64,000 nucleotides of DNA, taken from NCBI GenBank assembly GCA_001897535.1, contig MKTC01000040.1, positions 62,001 through 126,000 of the forward strand, read 5' to 3'. Made by a program: the position numbers and the translations under genes. The DNA is from Bacteroidetes bacterium 37-13 (GTDB taxonomy: Bacteria; Bacteroidota; Bacteroidia; Chitinophagales; LD1). The notes beneath the pieces are model-generated. The model did not search any database. It had not been told where the DNA came from and worked only from the letters and a program-made list of their open reading frames with translations. Positions within the stretch are counted from its first letter, which is position 1; every line of letters begins with the position of its first letter. Positions 10,214 to 17,212 of the stretch are shown here, piece after piece.

Positions 10214-11692
10214 CTATTTTACCAAAGTAACATTGCCGTTTGCTAAGCGCACTTTTTTCATGTTCTGGGTTTGAAATTCTGCGTTCCAAACATAAACACC
10301 TAAACTTTGTTCGTGGGTTTTGAAAGTACCGTCCCAACCTGTTTTGGCATTGTCGGTTTCAAAAATCAATTCACCCCAACGGTTGTAAACTTGTAGTTTA
10401 AACTTCTTTAAATTTTTGTTTGCAGGGCGAAAGAAATCATTTACTCCATCACCATTAGGAGAAAATCCGGTTGGCATCAGCAACTCATCGGGCGAAACAA
10501 TCGCTTGAACCGAATCGGTGGCTGTGCAGCCGGCAGCATCAGTTACCATTAAAGTATAAGTGGTATTTTCAGTTGGCGTAACTTCAGGCGCAGGGCAATC
10601 GCTGCAATCTAAATAAGTAGTTGGTTGCCAATCAAAAACCGGAGAAGTAACACCGCTTACCAAAGGAGAAAACTGTCCCGTTTCACCTTCTGTTAGCTGT
10701 AAATTTGACCCGGCATCAATTGTGAAACTTTTATTGGCTAAAGCGTATTGCGCATTTGTGTCAGGGAAATTGTAACCAGCAACAGCTACCGTTGCAAAGC
10801 CAATTGCATTGCCCGAACTTGCTGTTCCGGTATAATTCCAAAGTGCATTGTTTCTCCAGTTTCCTTGAGCATTCCAACTGCCATCGGTAGTGGCATCGTA
10901 AAACATTGTAATTGTAGCTGGATTTGTTCCGGAAAAGCGCTGAATATGATGATAAAAATTAGGATTTACTTTACATAAATCGGCATCAAATTGCGTTACA
11001 TCGTATCCGGCAGCCGTAGCATCACCGGCAATTGTTCTCACGCCAAAAGTGTGTGGCATATTTATGGAAGGACTAATTTCTATCGGGCGATAAAGTGGCG
11101 TTCCTAAACTTGAAGGCGAAGCTGTAGGGAAAAAATATGACGAAACTGAATTGGTAGCGCGAGAAAGATTGCCATATCCTAATGACGAAACAAATCCATT
11201 ATTGCGCACAATCGCACCAGCATTGGCGTTTGATACATTCATGCTGTAAACATCAGTTGCCAATTCGGCATTCGATAAATTTAAAATTCCGGTAACTTCT
11301 TGGTTAATGGTTTGTGTTTTTACTGTGTTTCCGCCAAGCAAAGCCAGATTATTAAAAGTAGTAGCTTGTGAGCCACTTAGCTGCTGCGCGCCTCCGGTCA
11401 TTTCAACCCAACTTGATGCGCCAGTATAAGTAGCATTGTTTACCCAATTTCCTGTGAGGCGAATGGTATCTCCTGAGCCATTTATGTTGGCATCATTTTG
11501 CACAAAACCTTCTACCTCAATAGTTCCTGAGTTATCAATTAAACCAACTGCATTTTGTACGGAATTGGTTTTTACAATCATGTAACCACCATCTTTCACA
11601 TACATATCAGCGCCATTGTTGTAAAACAAAGCCTGCCCAAACACAGGTGCAGAAACAACACAAAGTATAAATTTAAGTATATTATTAGCCAT
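10214..11692 (-). CDS. T9SS type B sorting-domain protein (gliding motility-associated C-terminus)
   Basis: A 492-residue secreted protein starting MANNILKFILCVVSAPVFGQ (signal peptide). The N-terminal half is rich in short beta repeats (GGYMIVKTNSVQNAVGLIDNSG, TIRLTGNWVNNATYTGASSW). An Ig/PKD-like segment (FDWQPTTYLDCSDCPAPEVT, TTYTLMVTDAAGCTATDSV) comes near residue 360. The final 90 residues are a CHU_C-type T9SS type B domain: MPTGFSPNGDGVNDFFRP, KLQVYNRWGELIFET, GWDGTF, GVYVWNAEFQ. Proteins with this tail are T9SS cargo that often use a dedicated PorP/SprF partner. The gene is convergent with the barrel pair (2 bp between stops) and divergent from rimP. Function beyond surface display is unknown. 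Confidence 0.85.
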   Translation of the reverse strand: MANNILKFILCVVSAPVFGQALFYNNGADMYVKDGGYMIVKTNSVQNAVGLIDNSGTIEVEGFVQNDANINGSGDTIRLTGNWVNNATYTGASSWVEMTGGAQQLSGSQATTFNNLALLGGNTVKTQTINQEVTGILNLSNAELATDVYSMNVSNANAGAIVRNNGFVSSLGYGNLSRATNSVSSYFFPTASPSSLGTPLYRPIEISPSINMPHTFGVRTIAGDATAAGYDVTQFDADLCKVNPNFYHHIQRFSGTNPATITMFYDATTDGSWNAQGNWRNNALWNYTGTASSGNAIGFATVAVAGYNFPDTNAQYALANKSFTIDAGSNLQLTEGETGQFSPLVSGVTSPVFDWQPTTYLDCSDCPAPEVTPTENTTYTLMVTDAAGCTATDSVQAIVSPDELLMPTGFSPNGDGVNDFFRPANKNLKKFKLQVYNRWGELIFETDNAKTGWDGTFKTHEQSLGVYVWNAEFQTQNMKKVRLANGNVTLVK

Positions 11693-11827
11693 AGAAATTT
11701 TAAAACGAAGGTTTGAAAATAACCACTTTTATGAAAGATTGAAATTTTGCCTAAAAAGTTGCTCAATATTCTAAAACATTTGTAGATGTGATAAAAAAAT
11801 GCCACATTCGCACCGCGTTTGGAAAGA

Positions 11828-11852
11828 GGGGACAAGAAAGTCCCCTTTTTTT
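11828..11852 (+). promoter_or_regulatory. Leader terminator (putative attenuator) before rimP
   Basis: A 6-bp GC-rich stem (GGGGAC 11828-11833, GTCCCC 11840-11845) with a 6-nt loop is followed directly by seven T (11846-11852). It lies on the sense strand 13 bp before the rimP ATG and inside the rimP-nusA-infB transcription unit. Because the convergent or divergent neighbours do not end here, it cannot be an ordinary gene-end terminator. NusA enhances hairpin-dependent termination, so feedback attenuation by the operon's own product is a reasonable inference. Confidence 0.7.
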
Positions 11853-11864
11853 GTGCTAAAGTTT

Positions 11865-12350
11865 ATGCAAGAAGTAAAAGAAAAGATTGGAGAATGGTTA
11901 AAGCCTGCATTGCAGGACGAGACTGTTTTTTTGGTTGAAGTAAAAGTGCTTCTTAACGGAAAAAAAATTGAGGTTTACTTAGATAGCGATGCCGGAATAG
12001 GAATTGATCAATGTGCTGTGATTAGCCGCCAATTAGAAAAAAACCTTGATGAAAGCGGCTTAGTTCCTGAAAATTATGTGATTGAAGTAAGTTCACCGGG
12101 CATCACCAATCCGCTAAAAGTACCGCGTCAATACAAGAAAAGAATTGGCAGTAAATTAGAAGTTTGGACAGCAGATGGCAATCTAGTGGAAGGTGAATTG
12201 AAAGCCGCAACAAACGAAGGAATTGAACTGGAAAAAACAATAAAGCCGATAAAGAAGAAAAAGAATGAAGCGCAGCCGGAAGTAAAACCTGAAAAGATAA
12301 ACATAGAATATAAGAACATTAAAAAAGCACTACTGCAATTAAATTGGTAA
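11865..12350 (+). CDS. rimP: Ribosome maturation factor RimP
   Basis: RimP assists 30S subunit assembly. The 161-residue product has the family core: VFLVEVKVLLNGKKIEVYLD, DQCAVISRQLEKNLD, and the diagnostic YVIEVSSPGITNPLKVPRQYKKRIG (residues about 74-98), followed by an Sm-like C-terminal barrel (LEVWTADGNLVEGELK). The C-terminus carries a lysine-rich extension (IKPIKKKKNEAQPEVKPEK) before IEYKNIKKALLQLNW. The start at 11865 (MQEVKEKIGEW) fits the family; an upstream in-frame ATG at 11799 would translate through the leader terminator and is unlikely. It is the first gene of rimP-nusA-infB, 27 bp before nusA. Confidence 0.95.
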   Translation: MQEVKEKIGEWLKPALQDETVFLVEVKVLLNGKKIEVYLDSDAGIGIDQCAVISRQLEKNLDESGLVPENYVIEVSSPGITNPLKVPRQYKKRIGSKLEVWTADGNLVEGELKAATNEGIELEKTIKPIKKKKNEAQPEVKPEKINIEYKNIKKALLQLNW

Positions 12351-12377: not shown

Positions 12378-13625
12378 ATGAATAGTATAGAACTTATTGA
12401 TTCGTTTTCGGAGTTTAAACAACTTAAAAACATCGATCGCCCAACCATGATGAAAGTGTTGGAAGATGTATTTCGTTCGTTACTTAAAAAGAAATATATC
12501 GAAACCGACAACTTCGATATTATCGTAAACACCGATAAAGGAGATTTGGAAATTTGGCAACGTAGAGAAATTGTAGAAGATGGAACGGTTGAAAACCCAA
12601 ACACTCAAATTTCTTTAACCGATGCGCATAAAATCGAGGAAGACTTTGAAATTGGAGAAGAAACTTACGAAAAAGTTGAACTGGAAAGTTTCGGCAGACG
12701 TTCAGTTTTGGCTGCTCGCCAAACACTTGTAGGTAAAATTTTGGATTTAGAAAAAGACGAAGTTTACAAAAAGTATAAAGACCGCGTTGGCGAAATTGTA
12801 AATGGTGAAGTTTACCAAATTTGGAAAAATGAAATCATGCTTTTAGATGAAGAAGGAAATGAATTAAGCCTTCCGAAAAAGGAAACTATTCGTGCCGATT
12901 TCTTCAAGAAAGGCGAAACAGTTCGCGCGGTTATTAAACGTGTAGATTTAAAAGGCAGTTCACCGGTAATTGTACTTTCAAGAACCGATTCTTCTTTTCT
13001 TTCAAAACTTTTAGAACAAGAAGTTCCTGAAATTTTTGATGGTTTAATTGTAATTAAAAATGTAGTGCGCGAACCGGGCGAAAAAGCAAAAGTAGTTGTA
13101 GAATCTTTTGACGACCGCATCGATCCCGTAGGTGCTTGCGTAGGCGTGAAAGGTTCGAGAATTCATGGAATTGTACGCGAACTTAAAAACGAAAACATTG
13201 ATATAATTAACCATACCACCAACTTAAACTTGATGGTTCAGCGTGCTTTAGCGCCTGCAAAAATTACTTCAATGGAAATTAACCAAGATAGGAAGCGTAT
13301 TTATGTTTACTTAAAACCAGATCAAGTAAGTTTGGCTATCGGTAAAAAAGGCGTAAACATTAAGTTGGCAAGTAAATTAGTGAACTATGAGCTTGATGTG
13401 TATCGCGAAGGTGATGAAATAGAAGAAGATTACGATATTGACTTAGATGAATTTAGCGATGAAATAGACCAATGGATGATTGATGAATTAAAGAAAATTG
13501 GTTGTGATACCGCACGCAGTGTACTCAATTTGAGCGAAGAAGAATTAGTGCGCAGAGCTGATTTAGAAGAAGAAACTATCAAAGAAATCCGCAAGATATT
13601 GCAGGCTGAATTTGATGGAAACTAA
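12378..13625 (+). CDS. nusA: Transcription termination/antitermination factor NusA
   Basis: NusA binds RNA polymerase and modulates pausing, intrinsic termination and antitermination. The 415-residue protein has the N-terminal RNAP-binding domain (residues 1-125), an S1 domain near 135-200 (GEIVNGEVYQIWKNEIMLLD), and two KH domains (about 205-345; VGACVGVKGSRIHGIVREL and VSLAIGKKGVNIKLASKL carry the GxxG loops). A short acidic C-terminal tail with helix-hairpin-helix character (EEELVRRADLEEETIKEIRKIL) follows. This is the standard architecture without the extended double AR repeats of E. coli. The upstream region is A-rich with no Shine-Dalgarno sequence. It is the second gene of the operon. 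Confidence 0.97.
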   Translation: MNSIELIDSFSEFKQLKNIDRPTMMKVLEDVFRSLLKKKYIETDNFDIIVNTDKGDLEIWQRREIVEDGTVENPNTQISLTDAHKIEEDFEIGEETYEKVELESFGRRSVLAARQTLVGKILDLEKDEVYKKYKDRVGEIVNGEVYQIWKNEIMLLDEEGNELSLPKKETIRADFFKKGETVRAVIKRVDLKGSSPVIVLSRTDSSFLSKLLEQEVPEIFDGLIVIKNVVREPGEKAKVVVESFDDRIDPVGACVGVKGSRIHGIVRELKNENIDIINHTTNLNLMVQRALAPAKITSMEINQDRKRIYVYLKPDQVSLAIGKKGVNIKLASKLVNYELDVYREGDEIEEDYDIDLDEFSDEIDQWMIDELKKIGCDTARSVLNLSEEELVRRADLEEETIKEIRKILQAEFDGN

Positions 13626-13765
13626 AACTATATGACTACCACACTCATCTTTTCTTGTTAAGCGATGAAACGAATTATGTAGGTTTTTAATCACATTATT
13701 GTTTTGACGTTTGTTTCCGGCAAGGAAAGGTGTTTTTTAAATTAAAAGGAAACAGAAAAAACAAT

Positions 13766-16654
13766 ATGTCTGAATTAAAACCAATTCGCTTGGCAGCAGC
13801 GGCTACACGTTACAATGTATCCACTACGCATATTTTGGAAAAACTAACCGATAGTGGCTTCCCTGTAGAGGATAAGCCAACTTTTAAGCTTTCGGTTGAA
13901 ATGATGGCGGTGCTTGAAAAAGCATTCGACAAAGATAGAGTGCACAAAAAAGAAGCTGATAGTGTATCGGCAGAAAAACCTAAAAAAGAAGTTGTGGTTA
14001 TTCCTGAAACTCCAGTTGTAGAAAAACAAAAGGAGAAAGAGGAAGAAAAAGAAATTCTTATTAGAAGAAATACCGTAGTTGCACCTCCGCCACCTATAGT
14101 AGAAGAAAAAGCTATCGAAGTCGAAGTAAAAGAAGAGCCTAAGAAAGAACCCCAAGTAGAAGTTCCTGCGCCTAAGGAAGAAGTTGCAAAAGAAGAAGTA
14201 CAAGAAGAGAAAGCAGAAGAGGCAGATGTAAAGGCGAAAGGTAAACTTAAAGGTCCTAAAGTTGTAGGTAAAGTAGATTTAGATAAACCTAAAAAGAAAC
14301 CTAAGAAGGAAGAAATTGCACAAGCGGAAGCAATTGTTGAAGAAGAAAAAGCAGTTGCAGAAGAAACTCCTGCAAAACCAGAAGTGGTTGAACCTGTTGA
14401 AGTTCCCGCTGTTGAAGAGACCAAACCAGAACCAACAGTAAAAGTAGAAGAAGCAAAGCCAAAAGAAGAACCAGATGCTAACTTTATTCAAACAAAGAGA
14501 ATAGAATTAGCCGGGCCAAAAATTTTAGGTAAAGTAGTTTTAGAAACACCTAAAAAGAAAGAAGAGAAAAAGCCGGAAACAAAACCGGGCGAAAAACGCC
14601 ATCGTGAAAGAAAGCGTATTGTAAAAACAGTAGAAAGAAAACCGGTTGAATTCGACAACGAGCACGAGAAAAAAGTACGCAACTTTAGAGAAAAAGAAGA
14701 GCGCAAAAAATTCACTCGTGGGCCAGGAGGAAACACTCCACCACAACCAACTGAAATTACAGAAAAGGAGATAGAGGATAAAATTCGCGCTACAATGGCG
14801 AAAATTCAACAGCAAACCTCAAAGAGCGATAGAAGTAAATTTAGAAGAGAGAAGCGCGAGTCTATTCAAGAGAAAATGGCTGCGCAGCAAGAAAACGTTA
14901 GCTCCAAACTACAAGTAACTGAGTTTATTTCAGTGAGTGAGTTGGCAAGTTTAATGAACGTGCCTGCCGTAAAGGTTATTCAAACTTGTATTAGCTTGGG
15001 TGTTATTGTTTCAATAAACCAACGACTTGATGCCGAAATTATAGAATTAGTTGCCGGAGAACACGGTTTTGAAATTGAATTTATTTCTGCACAAGACCAA
15101 CACACTTTGGAAACTGAAGAAGTAGATGCTCCGGAAGATTTAAAACCACGCGCACCAATTGTTACCATCATGGGCCACGTGGATCACGGTAAAACTTCAT
15201 TACTCGATTATATTAGAAAAGCAAATGTGGTTTCTAAAGAAGCCGGAGGTATTACCCAGCACATTGGAGCTTACGAAGTAACTACACCAAAAGGAAGAAA
15301 AATTACATTCTTAGATACTCCGGGGCACGAAGCCTTCACAGCGATGCGTGCGCGTGGTGCAAAAGTTACCGATGTGGCAGTAATTGTGATTGCAGCTGAT
15401 GACGCGGTGATGCCACAAACCAAAGAGGCGATTAACCACGCTCAAAGCGCTGGTGTGCCAATGATTTTTGCCATCAATAAAGTGGATAAAGAAGGCGCCC
15501 AGCCAGAGAAAATTAGAGAACAATTAGCCGGCATGAATTTATTGGTTGAAGAATGGGGCGGAAAATATCAAAGCCAAGAAATTTCAGCTAAAAAGGGATT
15601 GAATATCGAAAACCTTTTGGATAAAATTTTGTTGGAAGCAGACTTATTAGAACTGAAAGCAAACCCAAATAAAGTAGCTTCGGGTTCTGTGGTAGAAGCA
15701 ATGTTAGATAAAGGTAGAGGGTTTGTGGCAACAATGTTAGTTCAAGCAGGTACTTTAAAAGTTGGCGATATTATGGTGAGTGGCCCATATCATGGCAAAG
15801 TAAAAGCAATGTACAGCTACACAGGAGGCAAAATTAAAGAAGCAGGACCTGCAGTTCCGGTTCAAATTCTTGGTTTAAACGGTGCGCCACAAGCAGGTGA
15901 AAAATTCAAGATTTTTGATAATGAGCAAGAAGCTAAAGCAATGGCATCTAAACGCGCCCAGCTTGAAAGAGAACAAGGAATTAGAACGAAGAAACACATC
16001 ACTTTAGATGAAATAGGAAGGCGTTTAGCTTTAGGAACTTTCAAAGAGTTGAACTTAATTATTAAAGGTGATATGGACGGCTCGGTTGAAGCATTGGGCG
16101 ATTCATTATTGAAACTTTCTACAGAAGAAATTAGAGTGAATGTAATTCACAAAGGTGTGGGTGCCATTAGCGAAAGCGATGTGAACCTTGCAGCCGCTTC
16201 TGATGCTATTATTATCGGCTTTAACGTTCGTCCTTCAATTGGAGCGAAACGTGTTGCAGAGAATGAAAATATAGAGATAAAACTCTACTCAATTATCTAC
16301 AACGCTATTGAAGAAGTGAAGAGCGCGATGGAAGGTTTATTAGAGCCTAAGATTGAAGAAAAAGTGATTGGTAACGTTGAGGTGAGAGAAACATTCCACA
16401 TTACAAAAGTGGGAACTATTGCCGGATGTTTTGTTACCGAAGGAAAAATTACACGCTCTTCTAAAATACGCTTAATCCGCGATGGTATTGTGGTTCACAC
16501 CGGAAGCTTAGCATCATTAAAACGCTTTAAAGACGATGCGAAAGAAGTAACCAGCGGCATGGATTGTGGAGTACAAATAAAAGACTACCACGACTTAAAA
16601 GTTGCCGATGTAATTGAAGTGTTTGAAGAAATTGAAGTAGCAAGAAAACTCTAA
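13766..16654 (+). CDS. infB: Translation initiation factor IF-2
   Basis: IF-2 is the GTPase that delivers initiator tRNA to the 30S subunit and promotes subunit joining. The 962-residue protein starts [20 protein letters not shown] with the IF-2 N-terminal helix motif. A charged, low-complexity region (about 60-370) follows, in which the segment [19 protein letters not shown] recurs as [17 protein letters not shown] second N-domain comes near 390-450, then the G domain with [10 protein letters not shown] (about residue 470), DTPGHEAF and NKVDKEG, then domains II-IV. ATG 13766 is chosen over an upstream ORF start at 13730 because it begins the conserved N-terminus. The 140-bp gap after nusA contains no recognisable gene. 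Confidence 0.97.
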
Positions 16655-16774: not shown

Positions 16775-17212
16775 ATGTTTTGCCGCAATCAATTTTCTTA
16801 TTTGCAATCCTTGCAAACTACAGGATTGGATTATTTTAAAGTAAATATTGGAAGCATTAAGAACTCAGTTTTCAATGATAATTCTTTTGGGAATATAGTT
16901 GACAACTCATTGAAAAGCATCATTGAAATGGGAAAGTTTAAAGAATATTGGAGTATTACTAAAGATAAAATTGATGTTTGCAATCAGTGTGAATATAGAA
17001 ATATGTGTGTAGATAATCGTGTTCCTGTTAAACGGGATAACGGTAGTTATTATTTTGAGGGAGAATGTGACTATAATCCTTTTATTTCAAAGTGGAAGGA
17101 AGAACAACAATATGTAAATTTGGCAAACTGTGGAATTGTTATAGATAAAAATCAGATTCATATTGATAAAAGAAAAATAGAAGGTATAAATCTGGAAATT
17201 TGGAGTGTTTAA
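16775..17212 (+). pseudogene. Remnant of a SPASM-domain peptide maturase (grasp-with-spasm type)
   Basis: A 145-codon frame that matches only the C-terminal part of a radical-SAM/SPASM maturase. VCNQCEYRNMCVDNR (about residues 71-85) has the SPASM cysteine spacing C-x2-C-x5-C. It is followed by a further cysteine in GECDYNPFISKW, and preceded by FKVNIGSIKNSVFNDNSFGNI, which resembles the 'Ixx-G-IKN...FGNI' lead-in to SPASM domains. This ending is what I know from the SPASM maturase of Bacteroidota grasp-with-spasm peptide systems. The radical SAM domain with its CxxxCxxC motif is absent, as are an ATP-grasp partner and a precursor peptide. The segment is more AT-rich than infB and lspA on either side. 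It is most likely a 5'-truncated remnant of a transferred cluster. Confidence 0.6.

Follow-up and report, generated by a model that had tools for sequence, protein, structure and literature searches.

Our analysis supports a model in which the hairpin at positions 11828–11852 of the window (the whole 64,000-nucleotide stretch of Bacteroidetes bacterium 37-13 DNA analyzed here) probably mediates NusA-stimulated early termination in the leader of the rimP-nusA-infB operon, and thus feedback on NusA's own operon. What can be read from sequence is a predicted terminator that is conserved and lies immediately downstream of a promoter element, the lack of a visible antiterminator, and the retention of the unit before nusA in genomes without rimP; termination in vivo and the role of NusA as its modulator would follow from comparison among genomes and from work in other phyla. 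The proposal of NusA feedback is not new, having been made in 2010 for other phyla. New here are the survey across the phylum, the spacing between promoter and hairpin, and a family without detectable rimP that keeps the leader at nusA.

Read along the plus strand, the element consists of GGGGAC (11828–11833), the loop AAGAAA, GTCCCC (11840–11845), and seven T (11846–11852); with A-U and G-U pairs extending the core stem, the predicted leader terminator spans 11823–11852. The rimP ATG lies at 11865, leaving 12 bases after the T-run, and an in-frame alternative start (GTG) lies at 11853. On the same strand, rimP (11865–12350; Pfam RimP_N and DUF150_C) is followed by nusA (12378–13625; NusA_N and KH_5), whose product would be the feedback factor, and by infB, encoding IF-2 (13766–16654; IF-2 and IF2_N; start checked). 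The upstream neighbor (10214–11692), which bears a CHU_C type IX secretion signal, lies on the opposite strand, and because it is divergent no gene ends at the hairpin. The initial annotation had described a hairpin and seven T ahead of rimP on the sense strand with no gene end there, and the sequence, the Pfam assignments, and the gene orientation confirm that description. The RNA of the predicted leader (11815–11852) folds with −17.9 kcal/mol (z = −3.6), and 1 of 200 shuffles was equally stable. With one mismatch allowed and the loop length of AAGAAA, the stem pattern occurs once in the 64-kb window (0.00 expected), and with loops of 3–8 nt it is found at a single place in the 3.12-Mb genome. 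A simple terminator scan did not include the hairpin among its 18 sites.

Two other features of the window were observed nearby. In the 140-nt gap between nusA and infB (13626–13765), a short inverted repeat (TTTCC/GGAAA) precedes GGTGTTTTTT and may be an internal terminator or processing site. Downstream of infB, a 145-aa frame without a Pfam match (16775–17212) may be a gene fragment; we take its cysteine spacing to resemble the end of a SPASM-type peptide maturase.

The hairpin is retained throughout the near relatives. RimP was matched in 56 of 60 genomes, those of the window and of 59 relatives, and the leaders of these 56 were read; the other four gave no RimP match. A hairpin with a T-rich tract precedes rimP in all 56 leaders, that of the window and 55 of 55 relatives. 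The commonest stems are GAGGGGAC/GTCCCCTC, with loops that vary in length and sequence. In an alignment (A1) of 47 of the 56 leaders, from which near-duplicates (L008, L014, L019, L020, L024, L025, L026, and L039) and L040 were excluded, changes on both sides were seen in 7 of 11 pairs (2 of 500 shuffles as high) and in 22 cells; shuffles gave 7.6 such cells, and 0 of 500 reached the observed number. The true register exceeded all slid registers on covariation score and on cells paired, and tied with one slid register on further pair types. Stem changes appear to be partly compensated, by a comparison whose shuffle control leaves the relatedness of the tree in. A pattern scan of genome contigs matched at least 120 stretches in at least 80 loci. 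Among the matches listed (83 in 80 loci), RimP lay downstream in 52, comprising 50 of 56 matches of the TCTTTT form versus 2 of 27 of the TTTTTT form; the six TCTTTT misses, again among the matches listed, include one at a stretch end and two on the opposite strand of a counted site.

Stable 5′ hairpins can protect mRNA, and a hairpin this near to the start codon could serve in the mRNA as a 5′ element for message protection or for tuning the translation of rimP, with the T-run incidental. We regard this as highly improbable, as the T-rich tract is retained along with the hairpin, the distance from hairpin to estimated gene start varies (7 to 86 nt in 55 rows, and about 130 nt in L040), and a similar unit precedes nusA in the family without detectable RimP described below.

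Comparison of rimP leaders across Bacteroidota, which the initial annotation had proposed as a check, showed that the hairpin recurs well beyond the near relatives. The phylum sample comprised 148 genomes, with RimP in 147 and NusA in 148. Leaders from 99 of the 147 RimP-bearing genomes were scored (four more had been seen earlier, 44 were not fetched, and L281–L286 were left out of the scoring), and their choice was not random: the 30 top RimP scores, then Bacteroidia not yet fetched, then a selection. Under a strict energy-based terminator test, in which any hairpin inside a stretch of about 266 nt counts (for nine leaders added late, the stretch was up to 370 nt), 89 of the 99 leaders passed, compared with 7 of 99 shuffled sequences, 18 of 99 reverse strands, and 6 of 87 stretches from other parts of these loci. 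The passes on the reverse strand are partly expected because hairpin sites are near-palindromic. Among the ten misses, four fell barely short (−7.5 to −7.8 kcal/mol), and in six a hairpin is present but its T tract is short or interrupted. Stems vary from family to family, for example GAAAGTGGGG/CCCCACTTTT, CGCCC/GGGCG, and AGTGAG/CTCGCT, and the conserved feature is a hairpin and U-tract at this place, not one sequence. Taken together, the comparative tests favor a kept signal over a chance hairpin. A covariance model (R1) was not a specific detector: inspection by eye placed many of the phylum matches it listed away from rimP. Beyond the phylum, RimP was found in 11 of 13 genomes of other groups, and inspection by eye showed a similar hairpin in several of their leaders and none in L277 and L278, with L275 excluded. 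Tandem terminator-like hairpins before rimP were seen by eye in L190, L246, and L260, which belong to families outside the class Bacteroidia.

In Flavobacterium psychrophilum, TAnnTTTG is given as the −7 box (PMC9723704). The best site 8–60 nt upstream is an exact TAnnTTTG in 39 of the 56 near-relative leaders, a level reached by 3.6% of shuffles. Within the phylum sample, the exact element lies 9–30 nt ahead of the hairpin in all 33 Bacteroidia leaders (1.0 expected) and in only 21 of 66 non-Bacteroidia leaders (2.25 expected). The promoter of the window is itself a poor consensus match. Its putative −7 element, CACATTCG (11803–11810, plus strand), agrees at four of the six fixed TAnnTTTG positions and was aligned by eye with the CATATTTG/TATATTCG of relatives; a rival candidate, AACATTTG (11775–11782, plus strand), agrees at five of six and was the choice of an automated best-site scan. 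A putative −33 element, TTTG (11779–11782, plus strand), lies 20 nt before the −7 element and was picked by eye from relatives, under a −33 spacing rule. The predicted transcription start zone (11814–11818, plus strand) is placed by distance to the −7 element only.

Over the 56 loci, a crude longest-frame test put the upstream gene in the same direction in 31, in the opposite direction in 24, and left one undetermined. Because a promoter element precedes the hairpin and the upstream-gene directions are mixed, the hairpin most likely belongs to the operon's own leader. Conservation, the position of the promoter, and the fact that the hairpin occurs whichever way the upstream gene runs thus give strong support to the initial proposal of a terminator within the rimP-nusA-infB leader. 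At three Bacteroidota loci (L069, L102, and L112), an apparent tRNA 3′ end was seen by eye directly before the hairpin, which recalls metY-rimP in E. coli; E. coli K-12 carries GGGC..GCCC and T ahead of rimP, with metY upstream. Such loci would suit a terminator or insulator against transcription from upstream, as after a tRNA gene, but the upstream gene of the window is divergent, the upstream frame is opposite in the 24 leaders just counted, and the promoter element usually intervenes, so that we give this explanation very little weight.

The initial annotation had found no evident antiterminator, and the wider comparison agrees. Neither an antiterminator nor a second conserved 5′ helix was found in 49 folded leaders, which are weakly structured (0 to −6.1 kcal/mol); an AT-rich hairpin is confined to some Flavobacterium-like leaders. 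In the 53 of 56 leaders compared (L046, L049, and L050 were dropped by the pattern), the 16 nt that precede the hairpin did not overall pair with the stem arms more than shuffles did; in one leader they match 5 nt of the 3′ arm, which no shuffle does. There is little RNA before the hairpin, and therefore there would be little room for an antiterminator.

Searches against known RNA families and an alternative coding interpretation led to no other assignment. No Rfam family scored above threshold at the hairpin of the window. The best match, STnc250 (23.5 bits against a threshold of 42; E-value 0.54 over 12 kb and 0.009 over 201 bases), was treated as generic terminator resemblance, and the L13-Bacteroidia leader matched weakly (12.8 of 38 bits). 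RF01770, the rimP leader of Gammaproteobacteria, shares the gene context but is a longer model of 102 positions; it gave no match of at least 47 bits at 11828–11852, whereas the E. coli control leader scored 102 bits. A reading frame that begins upstream (ATG at 11799) and runs through the hairpin was rejected, as it would precede the predicted transcription start; several upstream-extending matches of relatives hold stops somewhere in the match.

The element belongs to a kind that is already known. Naville and Gautheret (2010) named the rimP-leader and called it the most ubiquitous attenuator; its general form has no antiterminator, and NusA was thought the best effector candidate, with RimP considered too (PMC2965389). 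As described in that paper's main text, it is a G-rich/C-rich hairpin with a U-tract before rimP-nusA-infB, 4–130 nt from the gene. The terminator of the window, presumably inside the transcript, lies at 12 nt in the leader of the same operon and likewise lacks a visible antiterminator. The groups named in the main text are Firmicutes and Gammaproteobacteria; the string "bacteroid" has no hits there, and the species lists sit in supplements (PMC2965389). The window stem GGGGAC/GTCCCC is G-rich/C-rich like the published GGGc(...)gCCC but differs from it as a literal motif (PMC2965389), and some Bacteroidota families have a reversed CGCCC/GGGCG relative to it.

Functional precedents come from several bacteria. 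A 2025 review states that in B. subtilis NusA stimulates intrinsic termination within the leader of the operon that encodes it; that autoregulation rests on experiment, whereas the Bacteroidota case, in another phylum, is built from sequence (PMC12288461). In Streptococcus agalactiae, the same operon is reported to terminate 31 nt after the start (PMC4448216), and E. coli NusA is said to regulate its own operon (PMC6511841). Within Bacteroidota, a 2021 study of F. psychrophilum listed, ahead of rimP, a structured 5′ element that is conserved in Flavobacteriaceae and has no Rfam match; it is very likely the same element in a relative, and that report's account of it does not describe NusA, the rimP-leader, or a hairpin (PMC9723704). 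An E. coli rimP leader fusion had lower expression in a Rho mutant, a result left unexplained in that account (PMC7815308), and it does not bear on an intrinsic hairpin. We recognized no further report of a rimP-leader element in Bacteroidota in the open-licence literature.

A family without detectable RimP bears on which gene the leader serves. RimP is a widespread ribosome maturation factor, and among the 148 genomes G165 alone gave no match to it. Two Pfam models, for RimP_N and for the second RimP domain, both found nothing in the same 39 of the 40 genomes of its family; 32 of the 40 reach 90% completeness or more with no more than 5% contamination, and 31 of these 32 are RimP-negative. 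The lone match (L340, on contig G253:C71) lies on a contig other than that of nusA, in a genome with 5% contamination. By eye, this contig has a TATAAT-like promoter, a GGAG ribosome-binding site, and its own leader hairpin; it looks foreign and is probably contamination.

NusA was found in 35 of the 40 family genomes. A blind energy test of the first 30 nusA leaders passed 21 (one of which, L333, is a different hairpin further up), compared with 0 of 30 shuffled and 2 of 30 reverse strands. Using a pattern written after a look at these results, and with two leaders cut by contig ends excluded, a hairpin and T-tract precede nusA in 32 of 33 readable leaders and 0 of 33 shuffled ones, giving a predicted leader terminator tied to nusA where RimP is undetected, as an attenuator of the B. 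subtilis type would have. The only miss, L309, has the stem with a broken T tract. The stem is GGGC..GCCC in 30 of the 32, and an exact TAnnTTTG lies at most 40 nt upstream of the hairpin in 31 of the 32, compared with 3 of 32 shuffled. The hairpin ends at most 231 nt before the NusA domain (the value for L334, which is overstated), and this is therefore too close for an intervening rimP gene. In all six loci checked, infB follows nusA.

The promoter-hairpin-T unit thus goes with nusA(-infB) and not with rimP. Its retention before nusA in these genomes weighs against control by RimP and favors control through NusA (or IF-2); because infB follows nusA, IF-2 stays a candidate for the sensed product. 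We know of no role of IF-2 in termination, which counts against it. Both RimP and IF-2 are encoded downstream of the hairpin, and RimP was among the effectors considered in 2010 (PMC2965389); overall, we find feedback by either product very unlikely.

We therefore return to NusA, a general termination factor, as the probable effector. In the proposed mechanism, the operon begins with a very short leader RNA that the hairpin would terminate, about 38 nt long with the aligned promoter or about 65 nt with the rival one. Polymerase would reach the hairpin almost directly after the promoter, where a fraction would stop and the remainder would go on to make operon mRNA. NusA, the product of the second gene, would increase the stopping fraction; abundant NusA would turn its own operon down, and scarce NusA would let it run.

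In B. subtilis, the hairpins of factor-dependent terminators tend to be weaker or their U tracts interrupted (PMC8060035), and for this reason the strong hairpin of the window, with its unbroken T7, may be able to terminate without NusA. A fixed attenuator, with constant readthrough that damps or tunes expression without product feedback, would be compatible with the wide differences in stem strength and T-tracts among lineages and with the lack of a visible sensor domain or antiterminator. Phylum-wide conservation at the head of the nusA operon, and reports from other phyla of NusA feedback on this operon (PMC12288461, PMC6511841, PMC4448216), speak against it, and we consider it unlikely.

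A broader form of the NusA model can be offered only tentatively. The rimP-leader may really be a nusA leader, near-universal in the phylum, with its terminator a few tens of nucleotides past the start, where the start factor leaves polymerase and NusA joins it. Such a terminator could read NusA loading, and its stem could drift freely because only the hairpin, the U-tract, and the distance would matter.

If there is a phylum-wide loop with its own promoter type, then self-limitation by NusA would be old, with an architecture that is kept while its sequence turns over. Naming the element after rimP had left open which gene the leader serves, and on this the family without detectable rimP adds an argument from comparison.
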